Assembly (NCBI GenBank): GCA_024330965.1
Contig: JANDJL010000002.1
Span: forward strand, 124,001-188,000
Origin: Nitrospira sp.
Lineage (GTDB): Bacteria > Nitrospirota > Nitrospiria > Nitrospirales > Nitrospiraceae
Length of the DNA: 64,000 bases
Reading direction: 5' to 3'
Shown here: positions 18,726 to 26,999 of the stretch, in pieces
Numbering within the stretch: the stretch's first letter is position 1
Layout: each line of letters begins with the position of its first letter
Notes under the pieces: generated by a model
The model's database searches: none
What the model was told of the DNA's origin: nothing
Seen by the model: only the letters and a program-made list of their open reading frames with translations
Program-made: the position numbers and the translations under genes

Positions 18726-19736
18726 TTATCCTGGAGAACTCACTTTCCCTTCTTCCCCATAGACTTTCTTCTTCCCCATAACCGCCAGGCAGAGAAGGCC
18801 GATGCCGATCCACACCAGTTCGCGGAATCGCCGCAACAACGCGAAGGTCAACCCGGTCACCTCGCCATAGCCGAACGCCTTCAGCAGCAACACATTTCCT
18901 CCATCCTGGGCGCCTAAGCTTCCGGGGATAAAAAAAGAACCGCCTTTGATGAAGACGGCGAGCGCGCCGATGGAAAACGCCGACAGAAAAGACGTCGGTC
19001 CACCGAGATAATGGAGAATCACAACAACCTCCAACGATTCAGCCATCCATCCCAAAAAATACACGCCGATCGAGGCATAGAACGCCCGTTGATGATGACG
19101 GTAGAAATGCCGAATGGTCTGGTCGATCGAGCGCAGGTGCTCTTCCTGCGACTCCAAAAACGCGCTTCGCACTCGTAACGCCCTGACGGCTCCCAGAATC
19201 GACGCAAAGAGGCCGCGGCGCTGTATAAAGACGAAGGCGGCGATCGAACAGACCAGCACTCCGACGCTCAGCAGTGCCGCCGTCACCGTAAAGCCGGCTG
19301 AATCTCCTGCGCCCAGCAGCAGAAATCCAAGAGCGATACCCGTCAAAATGTAACAGACCTCGGCAATCGTCATGGTCGTCTTGGCGATCACCACGGACGC
19401 GGCCCCCTCCGCTACCGGGACGTTGTGCTTATTGAGGAGATAGGCCTTGATCGGCTCACCGCCCAAATAGGCCGTCGGCGTCGTCATATTCACAACTTCC
19501 CCCGCCGTTCTGATCGCCAGCAGCCGCCAAAACGGCACCGCTCGCCCGGCCTGCCCCAGCACGACTCTCCAGCCATAGGCTTCAACCGTGTACATAATGA
19601 ACGACGGAAGGATGATGACCGCGAGGGCCGAGGGACCGAGCTGGGTGACCGCCTCGTAAATATTCAGGGGACCGATGTGCCAAATGAGAAGGCCGAGGAC
19701 GGTGAGACCGAGCGCCAGTAAAAAATAGCGAAGCAC
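18726..19736 (-). CDS. Flippase-like integral membrane protein (LPG synthase TM / UPF0104 family)
   Basis: 336 aa, GTG start, with about eight hydrophobic segments. It has the family hallmarks RTAGEVVNMTTPTAYLGGEP near residues 76-95 and GSLGAQDGGNVLL near the C-terminus. Relatives include the membrane half of lysylphosphatidylglycerol synthase (a lipid flippase) and HpnL-type proteins of hopanoid clusters. It is the last gene of a minus-strand run of phosphonate genes, 13 nt after the CDP-alcohol phosphotransferase. A role in moving the lipid product across the membrane is an inference from this context. Confidence 0.8.
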   Translation of the reverse strand: MLRYFLLALGLTVLGLLIWHIGPLNIYEAVTQLGPSALAVIILPSFIMYTVEAYGWRVVLGQAGRAVPFWRLLAIRTAGEVVNMTTPTAYLGGEPIKAYLLNKHNVPVAEGAASVVIAKTTMTIAEVCYILTGIALGFLLLGAGDSAGFTVTAALLSVGVLVCSIAAFVFIQRRGLFASILGAVRALRVRSAFLESQEEHLRSIDQTIRHFYRHHQRAFYASIGVYFLGWMAESLEVVVILHYLGGPTSFLSAFSIGALAVFIKGGSFFIPGSLGAQDGGNVLLLKAFGYGEVTGLTFALLRRFRELVWIGIGLLCLAVMGKKKVYGEEGKVSSPG

Positions 19737-19749
19737 GAGCGGCTCACGC

Positions 19750-21186
19750 TCAGACGTCGGTCGAGGTCACGGTTGACGAGCGAACGACCCACACCATGAC
19801 GCCCGCGAAGAGGAAGGAACCGATCGCTGCAAACCCAAGAAACCATTCCAACTTGGCGAACAACGCGAACAACACGAGCGTCACCGAAAAATCTCGACTG
19901 GCGACGTTCTTGAGCATGAAATCCGCCCATGCCGCATCCGACGGCGTCTTCCACCGGTTCGCGGCCTTGATTTTCTGTGCCCGCTCCACCAGCAAAAACG
20001 ACAGCCCGTTCCCCAGCACAGCCGTTGCGCCGAGCGCCAACATCCCCCACGCCCACGGCTGTCCCGCCTGCGCCGTATAGAGGCCGATCGCGATGCCCGC
20101 AAAAATGGCCATGTGCACAAGATTATCCATAAACAGATCGAGCCAGGCGCCGAACGATGATTCGGCAAACGTCAGTCGCGCCACTTCGCCGTCGCAGCAA
20201 TCAATAACGGCCGCCAACTGAAACACCAGCGCCGCGACGACTCCCGCCGTATAGGTGCCCAGGGAAAATCCAGCCGCAGCCGTAAAGCCGATCAGAGAGG
20301 CCACGACCGTAATAACGTTGGGAGACAGTCCCGCGGCAAGAAACAGGCGCGTGAACCAACGAGAAATCTTGCGGTTGAAATACCGATCAACGAACCCCTC
20401 CGTGTCACTTCTCAGGGAGCGGAACAGCTTCTTTTCCGCGAGCGGCAGGTCTTCAGGGGTTCTGACCGCCTGATACCACAGGCCGCGGGCCTCTGCCGTT
20501 TCTATTACGCGGACACGTCCCTCGACCGCAGCCCGTTCCAGCCAACGGCGGATCGGCAGCCGGCCGCTCTCCGTTCCAGCATCCCGAGCAGCGCTCATCA
20601 AACTGGCCGGCAAAACCACCATTTCGGCAGCCGAGGGCGCCGAATTATCGAAATGCGCGGGAGCAAACGACGTCAATCGCTGGGCGCGGGTTTTTAGCCG
20701 AACCCCTCCCCTAACCGCCACCGTGGACGGTCGCGACGTCGCTTGCGCCACCACCATCGCCTCACCGTCCCGCGCCTCTTTCCTGAGATGCTCGATCAAG
20801 CCTCGCGAGAAGACCGCGTTTGCGTTCAAAACAAGGGCGCAATCACCCACTTCGGCCCCCAAAAACTCCCACGTCCTTGGATCGTCAAGCGGAAATTCCC
20901 GGATCGGCATCCATCGCACAGGGATCGCCACCCGCGGCCCATTACACAAGGATTGTTTGAGCTGTTCTTCTTCGGGACCAGCCAACACGATCAATTGACG
21001 GATCCCCCCCCGCTGCAACGTAAGGACCGCGCGATGGAACAGCCCGATTCCCACCACGCTCGTCAGCGGTCCGACGCCTTCCCTCCGCCATCCGATCGAA
21101 TCACCGAACAGATCCACCGACGGGAGCAGAATCGCCGTTGCCAACCCTTGGATCCCGACATGGTTCTGTGCAAGACTCTCCTTCAT
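19750..21186 (-). CDS. CDP-alcohol phosphotransferase with N-terminal degenerate nucleotidyltransferase-like domain
   Basis: 478 aa. The C-terminal half (about residues 265-470) is a CDP-alcohol phosphatidyltransferase membrane domain with the full signature D329xxDG(x)2AR(x)8G(x)3D(x)3D354 (DCCDGEVARLTF...GAWLDLFMD). Such enzymes join a CMP-activated head group and a lipid alcohol. Residues about 15-250 resemble a MobA/GlmU-type nucleotidyltransferase fold (GLFHRAVLTLQRGGIRQLIV, CALVLNANAVF) but lack the GxGxR and PKxL motifs, so catalysis by this half is doubtful. The arrangement recalls the bifunctional IPCT-DIPPS enzymes. Here, amid AEP genes, the activated head group is probably CMP-2-aminoethylphosphonate. 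Confidence 0.85.
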   Translation of the reverse strand: MKESLAQNHVGIQGLATAILLPSVDLFGDSIGWRREGVGPLTSVVGIGLFHRAVLTLQRGGIRQLIVLAGPEEEQLKQSLCNGPRVAIPVRWMPIREFPLDDPRTWEFLGAEVGDCALVLNANAVFSRGLIEHLRKEARDGEAMVVAQATSRPSTVAVRGGVRLKTRAQRLTSFAPAHFDNSAPSAAEMVVLPASLMSAARDAGTESGRLPIRRWLERAAVEGRVRVIETAEARGLWYQAVRTPEDLPLAEKKLFRSLRSDTEGFVDRYFNRKISRWFTRLFLAAGLSPNVITVVASLIGFTAAAGFSLGTYTAGVVAALVFQLAAVIDCCDGEVARLTFAESSFGAWLDLFMDNLVHMAIFAGIAIGLYTAQAGQPWAWGMLALGATAVLGNGLSFLLVERAQKIKAANRWKTPSDAAWADFMLKNVASRDFSVTLVLFALFAKLEWFLGFAAIGSFLFAGVMVWVVRSSTVTSTDV

Positions 21187-21240: not shown

Positions 21241-21960
21241 TCACAATTTCGGCAAGACGTCCAATTCGGCTTTTCGCACATCGTCGGGAAAATCGATCTC
21301 CGTCCATGGCAACCCGCCGATCCGCTCGTAGCCAACCGAGACCGTTCGGAAAAAGGGGAGCAGCGCATCCTCGTATTCCATGGTCCACGCCCCTTGGTCG
21401 ACAAACGACCGCAGCGAGTCGATTAAATAAGGGGTATCGGCGTGCCGGACCCGGAGAAATCCCACGCCCTCTCCCGCAAAGTCATACTGCTCCGGCAGCC
21501 GTTTCGACAGGGCAATCACGCGCCCGCCCGCCACAGCTACCATACATTCCTCGCCCGTCTGCACGACGGTCTCGTCCATCAGCAGGGCGTTTTTGTGGGG
21601 CGATTCCACGAGACGCCTCAGAATATCGCGGTGAAAGAGCACGTCGGCATCCATCACGATCACGTCGTCGTCAAGCGCCGCGCGGGCGGTCCAGAGCGAA
21701 GAAATGCTGCCCCGATGGAATTCCTCGTTGACCAGAAAATTTACCGCGACCTCTGAGACCCCCTGCCCCACCGCCTGACGGATCATCTCCTGCTTGTATC
21801 CCACCACGATGTCGGCCCGTTTGATGCCGAGCCATGCCAACGTCTCCAGATAGCGAAGGAGCAGCGTCCGCCCACCGATTTCAATCAGACATTTGGGACG
21901 ATGCTGGGTGATCGGCCACAGCCGCTTCCCGACGCCGGCCGCGAGGATGACCGCTTTCAT
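21241..21960 (-). CDS. Nucleotidyltransferase, probable phosphonate (AEP) cytidylyltransferase
   Basis: 239 aa, starting at the ATG that overlaps the AEP transaminase stop as ATGA (21957-21960). MKAVILAAGVGKRLWPIT followed by RPKCL is the intact GxGxRL...PKxL nucleotide-binding signature, and MDADVLFH holds a metal-binding Asp. The fold matches sugar- and choline-phosphate nucleotidyltransferases such as LicC, and the PntC phosphonate cytidylyltransferases. Coupling to the transaminase makes CTP:AEP cytidylyltransferase the best guess. Phosphocholine- or sugar-type substrates are not excluded by sequence. Confidence 0.82.
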   Translation of the reverse strand: MKAVILAAGVGKRLWPITQHRPKCLIEIGGRTLLLRYLETLAWLGIKRADIVVGYKQEMIRQAVGQGVSEVAVNFLVNEEFHRGSISSLWTARAALDDDVIVMDADVLFHRDILRRLVESPHKNALLMDETVVQTGEECMVAVAGGRVIALSKRLPEQYDFAGEGVGFLRVRHADTPYLIDSLRSFVDQGAWTMEYEDALLPFFRTVSVGYERIGGLPWTEIDFPDDVRKAELDVLPKL

Positions 21961-23039
21961 ACGGCTACGCACGCTCGCTCGAAGGCGTCCAGAAATCCCG
22001 TCACCTGCGCTTCGGTCAACGCCCCCATGTTGGCCACACGGAAAATCCTGTTTTCCAAATTGCCCTGACCGGCGTAGATGACGTACCCCTCAGCCTTGAG
22101 TCGGTCATGCAGCGTCCGATAGGACAAGCCTTCCGGCAAATAATACGCCGTGATCGTGTTCGATTGACGGTCCGGAGGAAGAACCGGCTTGACACCCAGT
22201 TTGGCCATACGCTCGCGAATGACCGCCGCCATTCTCTTATAGCGTCGAATCCGGTTGGCCACCCCTTCTTCCAGCAGTTCGCTTAAAGCTTCATCAAAGG
22301 CATAATACACCTGAACCGCCGGTGTGAACGGAATCGTGCCCCGTCCTTCGTCATCGATATAGTGCGTCAGATGAAGATACCACGATCGTTTGGGGTAGGA
22401 CCTCATCCGCTCGACAAATCCTTTGCGCACGAGCACGAACGAGACACCCGGGAATCCTTGGATGCACTTTCCCGCCGTCCCCGCCACCATGTAAATGTGC
22501 GACTTGGCGATATCGAGGTTTTCGCCGGCCAAGGCGCTCACGGCATCAAGCACGAAGACGCGATTCTGCCCATCGACGATCTCGGCGATCTCCCGCACCG
22601 GATTGATCAGACCGGTCGTGGTTTCGTGATGGACCATGGCGACCGCGTGGACCTCCTGATGCTGTCGCAGCGCCAGCAGCAATTTGTCTGGATCCGGCCG
22701 CTCCGTCCAGTCATGCTTCAACTCGCTCACGCCCAAACGATGAAGCCCGACGATCTGAGACATCCGGTCCCCATAGACGCCGTTGTTGATGATGAGCACG
22801 CGGCGGCCGTGAGGCAACGACGACATCAACGCGGCCTCGACGGCGGCCGTGCCGGACCCGGTGATGACCACCGCCACGTAGTCCGACTCCGCTCCCGGCA
22901 CGAACGCCGTGAGCAGCTTGGCTTGGATGCGATGCAACAATTCGGTGAATTCCGACTCGCGGTGACAGATATCCGGGCGCAGCAACGCTTGTCGCACGCG
23001 CTCGCTGACATTCACTGGTCCGGGATTGAGAAGGATCAT
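21957..23039 (-). CDS. phnW: 2-aminoethylphosphonate--pyruvate transaminase-like enzyme
   Basis: 360-aa class V aminotransferase. It begins MILLNPGPVNVSERVRQALL as PhnW and serine-pyruvate aminotransferases do; LDAVSALAGE (Asp165) contacts the PLP ring and Lys191 in GTAGKCIQGFPG is the expected Schiff-base lysine. PhnW interconverts phosphonoacetaldehyde and AEP. Next to phosphonopyruvate decarboxylase and PEP mutase the direction is biosynthetic: amination of phosphonoacetaldehyde. A CGAGG ribosome site precedes the ATG. Confidence 0.87.
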   Translation of the reverse strand: MILLNPGPVNVSERVRQALLRPDICHRESEFTELLHRIQAKLLTAFVPGAESDYVAVVITGSGTAAVEAALMSSLPHGRRVLIINNGVYGDRMSQIVGLHRLGVSELKHDWTERPDPDKLLLALRQHQEVHAVAMVHHETTTGLINPVREIAEIVDGQNRVFVLDAVSALAGENLDIAKSHIYMVAGTAGKCIQGFPGVSFVLVRKGFVERMRSYPKRSWYLHLTHYIDDEGRGTIPFTPAVQVYYAFDEALSELLEEGVANRIRRYKRMAAVIRERMAKLGVKPVLPPDRQSNTITAYYLPEGLSYRTLHDRLKAEGYVIYAGQGNLENRIFRVANMGALTEAQVTGFLDAFERACVAV

Positions 23040-23128: not shown

Positions 23129-23707
23129 TCACTCGATGGCCTTCATAAACCGCTTCGTCAGATCGGGAGGGTCGAGCGCGATCCGCTCCGCCTCCTCCTG
23201 AAATTCGTTGACCTTGATCAGCAACATGCTGGGGCCGTCTTTTTTGAGCAGCTCTCGGAACTCGTACACGAGATCGTCACGATCGAGCACCCGCACGGCG
23301 TTGACGTAGCCGGCGGCTTTCGCCACTTTCTCCAACGGCACCACGTTGGAGATCGTCGGCTGATTGCCGGTCGTGCCGTACACTTCATTGTCAAAGACCA
23401 CGTGGATAAAATTTTTCGGTTTCAACGCTCCGACCGTCGCCAAGGTCCCCATGCCCATGAGGACGTTGCCGTCGCCGTCGAACGTTACGACCTGCTTGTC
23501 CGGCTTAGCCAGCGCGACACCCAACGCAATGGCCGGGGCGTTGCCCATCGACCCGATCATGTAAAAATGCGTCGGGCGGTCGGCGATTTTCTGCACCTCG
23601 CGCGACGGAAACCCGTTACAGACGATGACCGGCTGGTCGGTCAACAGTTCCAGCAACGCCCCGATCGCCTGTGCGCGGCTGATCAAGGTGCCTTCTTCCG
23701 GCCTCAT
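23129..23707 (-). CDS. Phosphonopyruvate decarboxylase, C-terminal (beta) subunit
   Basis: 192 aa, the ThDP-diphosphate-binding half of a Ppd/ComE-type decarboxylase. It carries the ThDP motif GDGNVLMGMG about residue 110 and ends the motif with FDNEVYGTTGNQ; GSMGNAPAIALGVALAKPD is the family's helix before it. Most bacterial Ppd proteins are one chain of about 380 aa; here the two halves are separate genes, as in sulfopyruvate decarboxylase ComD/ComE. The start follows GAGAGGATTGGA. Confidence 0.86.
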   Translation of the reverse strand: MRPEEGTLISRAQAIGALLELLTDQPVIVCNGFPSREVQKIADRPTHFYMIGSMGNAPAIALGVALAKPDKQVVTFDGDGNVLMGMGTLATVGALKPKNFIHVVFDNEVYGTTGNQPTISNVVPLEKVAKAAGYVNAVRVLDRDDLVYEFRELLKKDGPSMLLIKVNEFQEEAERIALDPPDLTKRFMKAIE

Positions 23708-23810: not shown

Positions 23811-24308
23811 TCACGGATGGAGCCCCCTCACGACCCCCTTCGTGATCAGGAGTGCCACCGGAATCCGTCTATTGTGATAAATGTCCGCCACCCAGGCCAA
23901 GTCTTCCTTCGCCGTGTTTTCCGACAAGGTCCGATGCGGAATGGTTATCGTATCCAGCAACCGCGGCAGGACTTGGCCCATGATGAGATGCTCCGGCGCG
24001 TCCTTCCCTCCCTGGCCTCTCCACGATACGATCAAAAGACAGGGCTGGCGATAAATCATGTTCAGCGAAATCAATGTATTGAGCGATGTCCCCAATCCTG
24101 AATTCTGCATCAACACCGCCGGCATTCTCCCCGCCATATAGGCGCCGGCCGCCATGCCCACCGCTTCATCCTCCCGGACGGCGGGAACGTACAAGCCGCG
24201 ATTCATCAGCTCGGCGATGATTCCACCCAGAATCGAGTCAGGCACCCCGGTAAAAAAATTCACGCCTATCGCTTGAAGAGATTGAACAAACTCATCGCTG
24301 TCGATCAT
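23811..24308 (-). CDS. Phosphonopyruvate decarboxylase, N-terminal (alpha) subunit
   Basis: 165 aa, the pyrimidine-binding half of the ThDP decarboxylase that turns phosphonopyruvate into phosphonoacetaldehyde. Hallmarks are FFTGVPDSILGGIIAEL, VREDEAVGMAAGAYMAG (the Glu that activates ThDP) and VLMQNSGLGTSLNTLISLN. It is first in the minus-strand run and lies 103 nt upstream of its partner. Sulfopyruvate decarboxylase is the alternative; the linked PEP mutase argues for phosphonopyruvate. Confidence 0.86.
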   Translation of the reverse strand: MIDSDEFVQSLQAIGVNFFTGVPDSILGGIIAELMNRGLYVPAVREDEAVGMAAGAYMAGRMPAVLMQNSGLGTSLNTLISLNMIYRQPCLLIVSWRGQGGKDAPEHLIMGQVLPRLLDTITIPHRTLSENTAKEDLAWVADIYHNRRIPVALLITKGVVRGLHP

Positions 24309-24512: not shown

Positions 24513-24549
24513 TGATGACTTATCGCTTACAGATCACATCTTGAATGCC

Positions 24550-25080
24550 ATGAACAACCCCGTTTCGCCATCGTGGCGCCTCGGCCTTTTCTCGCTTTTC
24601 CTTTGGCTGGTGCTTCCCGCGAACCTGTCGTGGGCCGTTCCGATGCTGAACGATCCCAAAGGATTTGGCGACATTCCGTGGGGGAGCCCGCTCGCAGCAC
24701 GAGACGACTTGGAAGTGCAGCGAGCCGGAGCCCATATCACGGAATACCGGTCAAAAAATGGGAAGATGACGTTCGCCGACGTCGAGATGACGAGCATCCT
24801 TTACGTGGCGTTCGACGACCAATTCGCTCGGGTGACCATCCGCTACCAGGGAGAGTCGGTCCACAAACACGTGCTGGATTTTCTGGAAACCCGGTACGGC
24901 GCTCTCCAACGGATCCCCGGACAGATGACGCGCGGACTTAACCAGCAATACACGTGGCGCGGATCGGACACGGAAATCACCCTCACCTACCAAGCCAGCA
25001 CGGAACGCGGCTTCATTTTTATCGACAGCCGATCCCTCGCGCCGCGATTCAATGATGACCTGACCGACTCAGCGGAATGA
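24550..25080 (+). CDS. Secreted protein of unknown function
   Basis: 176 aa from the ATG at 24550 (a TTG three codons earlier is possible). The N-terminus is a signal peptide, basic then hydrophobic, with probable cleavage after LSWA. The mature part contains FGDIPWGSPLAAR, a pattern seen in small secreted proteins where a short calcium- or substrate-dependent domain follows, and alternates beta strands throughout. I cannot name a family with confidence. It lies in the divergent spacer of the phosphonate locus, 233 nt before pepM; whether it belongs to it is unknown. Confidence 0.75.
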   Translation: MNNPVSPSWRLGLFSLFLWLVLPANLSWAVPMLNDPKGFGDIPWGSPLAARDDLEVQRAGAHITEYRSKNGKMTFADVEMTSILYVAFDDQFARVTIRYQGESVHKHVLDFLETRYGALQRIPGQMTRGLNQQYTWRGSDTEITLTYQASTERGFIFIDSRSLAPRFNDDLTDSAE

Positions 25081-25313: not shown

Positions 25314-26999
25314 ATGGCGCCCATGACCAACGCCGCCAAGCTCCGAGCCGCCCTCAAACGACCCGGCGCCCTGAAAATCGTCGGTGCTCACGACGCACTG
25401 AGCGCCCGCCTTATTGAACGCGCGGGCTTCGACGGCGTTTGGGTCGGCGGATTCGCCGTGTCAGCCTCACTGAAATGCGTTCCGGACGCCAGTTTCATCG
25501 ATTCCAGCGAACAGCTCGCCATCGAACGTAACATCGTCGAGGCGGTCAGCATCCCCGTCATCGCCGATTGCGACACCGGCTATGGAAACGCGCTGAACGT
25601 TATGCGCACCGTCAACGACCGCGAACGGGCCGGTGTCGCCGGCATCTGCATCGAGGACAACATCTATCCCAAGCGATGCAGTTTCTATGCGGGTGTCCGC
25701 CGAGAGCTGATTTCCATCGAAGAACATTGCAGCAAAATCAGGGCGGCGAAAGCGGCACAGATGTTCCCCGATTTCGTGGTCATCGCGAGAACGGAAGCAT
25801 TGATCGCAGGGTGGGGACAGGCGGAAGCGCTGAAACGGGCGGAGGCCTACGCCGAAGCAGGAGCCGACGCAGTGCTCATCCACTCAAAATCGAAAACGTT
25901 CGACGAGCTGCGGGCCGTTTACCGGGCCTGGTCCGGCCGCGTGCCTCTGGTCGTCGTGCCTACAATCTTCGATCAGACCACGGCGGCGGAAATGGAGGAG
26001 GCGGGCGCCAAAATCATCATCTACGCCAACCAACCGGTGCGGGCTGCCATCCGCGCGATGCGGGACGCGCTCCATCTCATTAAACAAGATACCCGCCCCG
26101 GAGCCGCCAACGACATTATCGTTCCGCTTCAGGACGTGTACGATATCGTCGGCGTCCCGCAAATGGAACGGGATGAACGGGAATTCCTGCCCGTGGGCGG
26201 CGAAACCATCACCGCCATCATCGCCGCCGCGGGATTCGAAAAGCAGTTGCTGCCGCTGATCGAAGACAAGCCCAAATGTTTGCTGGACATCAAAGGGAAA
26301 ACGATCCTCGATCGGCAGGTGGCGGCGCTCAACGAATGCAACATCAAAGACATCGCGCTCGTGCGCGGATACAAAAAAGAAGCCATCACGCTGCCCAATA
26401 TCCGCTATTACGACAACGATCGGTACGAAACCACGGGCGAATTGTTTTCTCTCTTCTGCGCCGAAAACGAGTTGAAGGGACGGATCATTGTCCTCTACGG
26501 CGACATCATCTTCGACACGGCCGTTCTTGAGAAGTTGCTGAAGAGTCCCGCCGATATTTCCATCGTGGTGGACTTGGCCTGGTTCGACCAGCATCAGCGC
26601 CACGCTCAGGCTACTCACCCGAATCCGGACCTTGTCTCCCTCGCTGAACCGCCCGGCAGGAGCTATCTTTCTCGGTTCATCATGTCGGAAGGGGAGCATC
26701 GCGTCGTCAAGATCGGTCGGCATGTGCCCGTGGAGGAGGCGCACGGAGAATTCATCGGCATGGCCATGTTTTCCGAAAAAGGGACGCAAGTGCTTCGCGA
26801 CTGTTACCGGTCGGCGCAAGAGTCCGCCCGATCCATCGGCTTCCACGAAGCCACCGACCTGACTACAGCCTCGTTCACCGACATGATTCAAGAACTGATC
26901 GATCGCGGCCACCGGGTCGACGCCGTCCCGATTTTCAAGGGCTGGACGGAAGTCGATTCGTTCGAGGAGTATCAGAAAGCCTGGGCCAAAATCCGATAG
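25314..26999 (+). CDS. pepM: Phosphoenolpyruvate mutase fused to a nucleotidyltransferase domain
   Basis: 561 aa. Residues about 5-290 are a PEP mutase/isocitrate lyase superfamily barrel, which forms the C-P bond by turning PEP into phosphonopyruvate. Residues matching the mussel enzyme are kept (DCDTGYGN at 85-92, E114, K120, R159, H190). But the diagnostic EDKx5NS loop reads EDNIYPKRCS (114-123): Lys116 is Asn and Asn122 is Cys. Residues about 297-561 form a nucleotidyltransferase fold whose loop is AAAGFEKQLLPL...DKPKCLL: PKxL is kept but GxGxR is not. Fused PEP mutase-cytidylyltransferases are known in phosphonate clusters. It is divergent from, and presumably supplies, the decarboxylase/transaminase run. 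No clear ribosome site is seen; an ATG at codon 4 is possible. Confidence 0.85.
   Translation: MAPMTNAAKLRAALKRPGALKIVGAHDALSARLIERAGFDGVWVGGFAVSASLKCVPDASFIDSSEQLAIERNIVEAVSIPVIADCDTGYGNALNVMRTVNDRERAGVAGICIEDNIYPKRCSFYAGVRRELISIEEHCSKIRAAKAAQMFPDFVVIARTEALIAGWGQAEALKRAEAYAEAGADAVLIHSKSKTFDELRAVYRAWSGRVPLVVVPTIFDQTTAAEMEEAGAKIIIYANQPVRAAIRAMRDALHLIKQDTRPGAANDIIVPLQDVYDIVGVPQMERDEREFLPVGGETITAIIAAAGFEKQLLPLIEDKPKCLLDIKGKTILDRQVAALNECNIKDIALVRGYKKEAITLPNIRYYDNDRYETTGELFSLFCAENELKGRIIVLYGDIIFDTAVLEKLLKSPADISIVVDLAWFDQHQRHAQATHPNPDLVSLAEPPGRSYLSRFIMSEGEHRVVKIGRHVPVEEAHGEFIGMAMFSEKGTQVLRDCYRSAQESARSIGFHEATDLTTASFTDMIQELIDRGHRVDAVPIFKGWTEVDSFEEYQKAWAKIR

Follow-up and report, generated by a model that had tools for sequence, protein, structure and literature searches.

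Can a protein of the phosphoenolpyruvate (PEP) mutase family make phosphonopyruvate when its active-site loop lacks the residues by which the family is recognised? In surveys of phosphonate producers, PEP mutase (PepM) is operationally defined by the motif EDK(X)5NS (PMC6697681, PMC8931226, PMC12723261). The question is raised by an ORF of a Nitrospira sp. (contig JANDJL010000002.1), within a stretch of 64,000 nucleotides that was analysed as a whole and is here called the window. The ORF occupies positions 25314-26999 on the forward strand, starts with the ATG at 25314 and encodes 561 aa. Codon 114 starts at 25653, and direct translation of 25653-25685 (forward strand) gives EDNIYPKRCSF for residues 114-124 of the gating loop.

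When aligned with the mussel PEP mutase (1m1b) by phmmer, EDNIYPKRCS pairs without gaps with EDKLFPKTNS. The original prediction had read residues 114-123 in this way, with Asn for Lys116, Cys for Asn122, and E114, K120, R159 and H190 retained at the mussel numbers; this was borne out in full, and D58, D85 and D87 are likewise kept at those numbers, the numbering of the two proteins being shifted by one near residues 46-48. The magnesium shell (D58/D85/D87/E114) is therefore present together with K120, R159 and H190, and the EDK(X)5NS motif is absent. The EDK...TS loop of phosphonopyruvate hydrolases is also absent, the protein has EDN...CS and is placed outside the EDK clade, and in place of the lyase signature EDQ...K(K/R)CGH with E190 it has EDN...KRCSF with H190. 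A sequencing error or a one-off gene is ruled out as the source of the loop, since EDN[IV][YF]PKRCSFY is found in every ortholog examined from the order, and N116 with C122 in all 58 diverse members of the class compared below.

The PEP-mutase domain (residues about 1-292; 25314-26189, forward strand) matches PF13714 with 199 bits. It scores 266.4 bits on the PepM model TIGR02320, which is below the curated cut-off of 319.55, and the score of the protein on the phosphonopyruvate hydrolase model TIGR02321 is 257 bits. A feature absent from the original prediction is the C-terminal domain (residues about 297-561; 26202-26999, forward strand), which matches PF12804 and LicC (1jyk). It is an NTP_transf_3 domain with the PK and metal-binding Asp motifs of PntC; P320, D397 and D420 are invariant and K321 nearly so across the variant and canonical fusions. 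The domain is predicted to be a PntC-like, MobA/NTP_transf_3-type 2-aminoethylphosphonate cytidylyltransferase, and, as judged by these domain matches, the two-domain layout is the known PepM-PntC fusion architecture.

Upstream of the fusion ORF a set of genes runs divergently, all on the reverse strand, so that a phosphonate-biosynthesis context is present within the window. These genes encode PpdA, the alpha subunit of a phosphonopyruvate/sulfopyruvate decarboxylase (23811-24308; TIGR03297 N-half 133.6 bits, TIGR03845 114.9 bits), the TPP-binding beta subunit PpdB (23129-23707; TIGR03297 C-half 172.9 bits, TIGR03846 186.8 bits, PF02775) and a 2-aminoethylphosphonate aminotransferase, AEPT (21957-23039; TIGR03301 349 bits, cut-off 360.8). 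They are followed by a second, stand-alone nucleotidyltransferase, retained in the cluster across the genus (21241-21972; PF00483, PF12804), a CDP-alcohol phosphatidyltransferase with an extra N-terminal domain (19750-21186; PF01066, NF041135 99 bits) and an HpnL/LPG-synthase-type flippase-like membrane protein (18726-19736; TIGR03476 166 bits, PF03706). The long extra N-terminal half of the 19750-21186 protein resembles the arrangement of the bifunctional inositol-phosphate cytidylyltransferase/DIPP synthase. Between the two divergent units, on the forward strand, a secreted protein of about 179 aa (24541-25080), without a Pfam or NCBIfam match and syntenic across the genus, marks the PepM insertion site genus-wide; a diverged second tandem copy is often present.

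Taken together, this gene set would make 2-aminoethylphosphonate and attach it to a lipid. The PepM domain, with its EDN...PKRCS loop, would convert PEP to phosphonopyruvate, PpdA/PpdB would decarboxylate this to phosphonoacetaldehyde, and AEPT would transaminate the aldehyde to 2-aminoethylphosphonate. The fused PntC-like domain, the second nucleotidyltransferase or both would then form the CMP conjugate, from which the CDP-alcohol transferase is likely to transfer the phosphonate headgroup onto a membrane lipid.

Comparisons within the genus support the first of these steps. Among 79 genomes, 29 have the EDN-CS fusion, 45 have a canonical EDK-NS fusion that is 34-40 % identical to it, none has both and five have neither (Fisher p 8e-17, the genomes being related and hence not independent). 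A tree built from AEPT and PpdB of the cluster has at least six to seven switches of PepM type, so a single old event does not account for the exclusion. The cluster itself stays: AEPT of the window type is present in 76 of the 79 genomes irrespective of the PepM type, and it is at least 80 % identical in nearly all of them. In six canonical genomes (G007, G019, G066, G067, G068 and G102) the old site between the same two flanking genes still holds remnants of the EDN-CS gene, broken by stops and deletions, and an intact canonical PepM lies elsewhere. The neighbours of the canonical gene in G022 and G007 are housekeeping genes (TPR, OmpA and clostripain; ispD, cysE-like, truA and amidase), none of them a phosphonate gene.

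The decarboxylases point the same way. A fused aepY is found in 17 genomes, each with a canonical PepM. In the 28 canonical genomes that remain, among them the single-contig G059 and G022, the decarboxylase genes found are at most those of PpdA/PpdB, and the PpdAB orthologs that serve variant and canonical genomes are 75-97 % identical. Since PpdAB is the sole decarboxylase found in the canonical genomes that lack aepY, it takes phosphonopyruvate there; the orphan canonical PepM thus feeds the same PpdAB-AEPT cluster as the EDN-CS enzyme, and phosphonopyruvate would be their common product. As read from the genomes, this swap of PepM over the same cluster appears to be a natural complementation. 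The original prediction had left it undecided whether the protein belongs to a variant class or has another product. One-for-one replacement of canonical PepM and the same context in several phyla argue for the variant class; the other product finds no favour, as the genomes with a swapped-in canonical enzyme retain the downstream PpdAB, AEPT, nucleotidyltransferase and CDP-alcohol transferase genes, pointing to the same product.

Some genomes are less simple. Two fairly complete ones in which the cluster is present, G064 (L143) and G088 (L144), have no PepM of either type that could be found, and this counts against the EDN-CS enzyme as the PEP mutase of the cluster. In G064 (L143 3630-5120) there is a gap of 1.5 kb between the flanking genes, in which no PepM remnant is recognisable. 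The exclusion between the two types could also stem from incompatible alternatives. The same split between variant and canonical types is seen in 396 genomes drawn from the phylum, each genome except G360 having a single match over the limit. G360 does not count as a case of both forms in one genome: its C9 copy departs from PepM around residue 110 and is a chimera, probably through MAG misassembly, and an ordinary variant begins on contig C115 with its residue 111. The chimera (L188 4819-5763; L197 1-1359) switches to another isocitrate-lyase-type protein.

The loop is not confined to this phylum. Scanning 84,980 species genomes with the pattern ED[N/K]x[YF]PKxCSF found at least 117 EDN-CS loci in about a dozen phyla, and all 117 matches listed are PepM relatives with Asn116 and Cys122. 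Although the pattern allowed K or N at position 116, there are no EDK...CS intermediates among the matches listed. By record title, these belong to Nitrospirota (44), Planctomycetota (20), Myxococcota (15), Binatota (8), Acidobacteriota (8), Actinomycetota (6) and Pseudomonadota (5), with others represented by one or a few; such tallies rest on titles that for MAGs are at times unreliable, for example L257 and L222 (titled Nitrospinota). L257, a MAG titled Klebsiella pneumoniae, carries a fused EDN-CS PepM cluster, and its title is probably wrong. Complete isolate genomes among the matches listed are those of Minicystis rosea and two Sorangium cellulosum.

The architecture and the context recur with the loop. 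The nucleotidyltransferase fusion is seen in 94 of the 117 matches listed, Ppd genes are near 67 of the 117 (within a fetched stretch of at most 8 kb), and AEPT and PpdA/PpdB adjoin many of the EDN-CS genes. The canonical operons of Mycetohabitans rhizoxinica and Roseomonas marmotae have near-identical gene content to the EDN-CS clusters (an aepX fusion, aepY, AEPT, a nucleotidyltransferase and a protein with an LPG-synthase domain), with a CDP-alcohol transferase additionally present in that of Mycetohabitans. Other members of the class, tested singly, score 252-297 bits on TIGR02320 (cut-off 319.55). A second PepM of the same genome that does the job is excluded: besides the fusion ORF, only a MICL-like protein was found in the genome of the window, and no PepM above the TIGR02320 cut-off was found in 40 further variant-bearing genomes from outside the genus. 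It is well supported by these sequence comparisons that EDN-CS proteins are a conserved, multi-phylum variant class of PepM that has so far been overlooked.

Unfused members are found in Actinomycetota, and they keep the loop motif too. That of Streptomyces sp. SID3343 (L256 6470-7471) would be invisible to motif-based mining of actinomycetes for phosphonate natural products. The Frankiales/Acidimicrobiales members (L215, L227, L230 and L266) are unfused and have Asn for Asp87 in the metal shell, and their genes still adjoin PpdA/PpdB and an AEPT-like gene. They form a divergent subgroup for which activity is less certain.

Residue by residue, the final alignment of 58 diverse EDN-CS proteins presents a mosaic. 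C122 (58/58), T160 (58/58), usually R/K121 and often H138 are states seen in lyases; H190 (58/58), N239, P216-T217, E161, S123 and S191 are states of PepM and the hydrolase; and N116 (58/58) is the mark of the class itself. Three of the 58 have D87N, and the other metal-shell residues, K120, R159 and H190 are kept in nearly all. A tree calculated without the loop columns unites canonical PepM with phosphonopyruvate hydrolase (99/99) and leaves the EDN-CS proteins outside the clade of proven PepM. They lie between the EDK clade and the lyases, as a sister group or a grade (AU p 0.22 for a single clade). A branch with 100/100 support separates the lyases from EDN-CS and the PepM/hydrolase side whether or not the loop is removed, hence the loop columns are excluded as the driver of this result. 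The EDN-CS proteins are possibly an ancestral grade outside the EDK clade. The loop cysteine was probably inherited from a lyase ancestor and not newly gained, and in the simplest reading Asn (mutase) and Thr (hydrolase) at position 122 would be later arrivals, although the direction may be the reverse, with Cys122 gained.

An AlphaFold2 model made from 44 sequences has a pLDDT of 90.9, with a dip to about 72 at the gating loop (121-130). The best PDB match is the PEP mutase 5unc (TM 0.98, rmsd 1.2), 1pym reaches TM 0.96, and the ranking places PEP mutases above the hydrolase and the hydrolase above the lyases. The predicted fold is that of a PEP mutase with a mobile gating loop.

It is likely, with a probability of roughly 0.8, that the EDN-CS enzyme is a working PEP mutase of a distinct class. 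The sequence, the predicted fold, the conservation, the gene context, the mutual exclusion and the decay of variant genes in genomes with a canonical PepM are observed; the reaction, the product and the downstream steps would follow from them. By analogy with known PEP mutases, the D58/D85/D87/E114 shell would bind the substrate's carboxylate and keto oxygen through Mg, and the phosphoryl group would move dissociatively while R159, H190, and K120 and S123 of the closed loop grip it, with Cys122 replacing Asn122 as the loop residue that faces this group. For the mussel enzyme, the prevailing view is that Asn122 and Ser123 assist in keeping the phosphoryl group in place (PMC7916636). A tentative extension, for which the odds are low, is that EDN-CS represents an older and mechanistically distinct class of C-P mutase linking the Cys-using C-C lyases to EDK-NS, in which a catalytic Cys122 might, for example, hold or transiently accept the phosphoryl group in place of Asn122-assisted, metaphosphate-like transfer.

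The sub-cut-off TIGR02320 score and the lyase states Cys122 and Thr160 count against a PEP mutase, and they would suit another enzyme of the isocitrate-lyase superfamily, such as a 2-hydroxyacid C-C lyase with Cys122 as acid/base, in a cluster with a non-phosphonate product. The PKRCS loop does resemble PK(K/R)CGH, and titles in the PDB list C123S mutants of PrpB at the lyase loop cysteine. This is nonetheless unlikely, because H190 (E in lyases), S123 (G), E161 (D) and N239 (V/L) are PepM-like in 57-58 of the 58, the variant lies on the PepM/hydrolase side of the 100/100 branch, also in the loop-free tree, and canonical PepM repeatedly replaces it over the same downstream genes. Loop position 122 is where the catabolic phosphonopyruvate hydrolase, too, departs from PepM (Thr for Asn), and the 257 bits on the hydrolase model are near the 266 for PepM; that the variant has this activity is hardly credible when its context is biosynthetic, no other PepM is there to supply the substrate, and the hydrolases branch within the EDK clade, apart from the variants.

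Another pathway is suggested by PpdB, which has a slightly higher score on the sulfopyruvate decarboxylase beta model (186.8 bits) than on that of the phosphonopyruvate decarboxylase C-half (172.9), an observation that also counts against a PEP mutase. With decarboxylase subunits split as in ComDE, the enzyme might help to make sulfopyruvate, PpdA/PpdB being ComD/ComE and the headgroup taurine-like. PpdA, however, favours the phosphonopyruvate model (133.6 against 114.9), AEPT scores 349 bits as a 2-aminoethylphosphonate aminotransferase, and in single-contig genomes that have a motif-perfect canonical PEP mutase no decarboxylase other than this PpdAB was found. Cytidylyl activation, moreover, requires a phosphonate or phosphate oxygen, and a sulfonate pathway is very unlikely. 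Finally, two differences in the diagnostic motif could mean that the PepM domain is a remnant, inactive or in decay, and that the fusion is kept for its nucleotidyltransferase domain. This is most improbable, as the metal ligands, R159 and H190 are retained across very divergent members, the unfused Actinomycetota variants also retain the motif, and neither the genome of the window nor the 40 other variant genomes has another PepM; real decay, as seen in the six canonical genomes, looks different.

The EDN-CS enzyme thus appears to work like a PEP mutase, yet it fails the motif, the model cut-off and placement in the proven clade. A large set of proteins with the loop exists; the original prediction would have given way to a large set of proven EDN...CS PEP mutases, and none of these was found to be biochemically proven, nor was a published assay of an enzyme with the motif found. 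A search of the open-access literature, incomplete and hence weak as a negative, found no papers on Nitrospira phosphonates or non-canonical PepM motifs. The class is missed both by the EDK(X)5NS filter and by the NCBI model (266 bits against 319.55), and since it is present in 29 of the 79 genomes of the genus and is the sole PepM found in 40 of 40 further genomes, these would be counted among the non-producers. The class also offers a way to test what residue 122 does (Asn in the mutase, Thr in the hydrolase, Cys in the lyase and now Cys in a probable mutase), and bears on the origin of a C-P mutase from a C-C lyase.

One of the closest known systems is canonical PepM (PepM/Ppm/AepX; TIGR02320; mussel 1pym/1s2v, Streptomyces 5unc), which has in common with EDN-CS the fold (TM 0.94-0.98), D58/D85/D87/E114/K120/S123/R159/H190, the gene partners and the fusion to a PntC-type nucleotidyltransferase. 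It differs in K116/N122 against N116/C122, and in having V/I, T/V, L and F where EDN-CS has T160, R121, F47 and usually H138; unlike canonical PepM, EDN-CS is mostly paired with split PpdA/PpdB and lies below the TIGR02320 cut-off. The PepM-PntC fusions of Rice et al. (2019) have the same two domains, PepM and a MobA-like nucleotidyltransferase, in one protein (PMC6697681). They were accepted only with EDKXXXXXNS, and 26,231 sequences without the motif, 22 of them fused, were set aside (PMC6697681); EDN-CS members would fall among these. Phosphonopyruvate hydrolase (TIGR02321; Variovorax 2dua) shares the fold, H190, S123, F47 and a PepM-like pocket, but has EDK, Thr122 and a catabolic context and branches with canonical PepM, apart from EDN-CS; one proposal, which is contested, ascribes its activity to the Asn to Thr change (PMC7916636). 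The 2-methylisocitrate lyase, petal death protein and isocitrate lyase group (PrpB 1mum, 1zlp) shares the loop Cys, T160 and K/R121 with EDN-CS, which differs from their EDQ...CGH, E190, D161, V/L239 and gene context.
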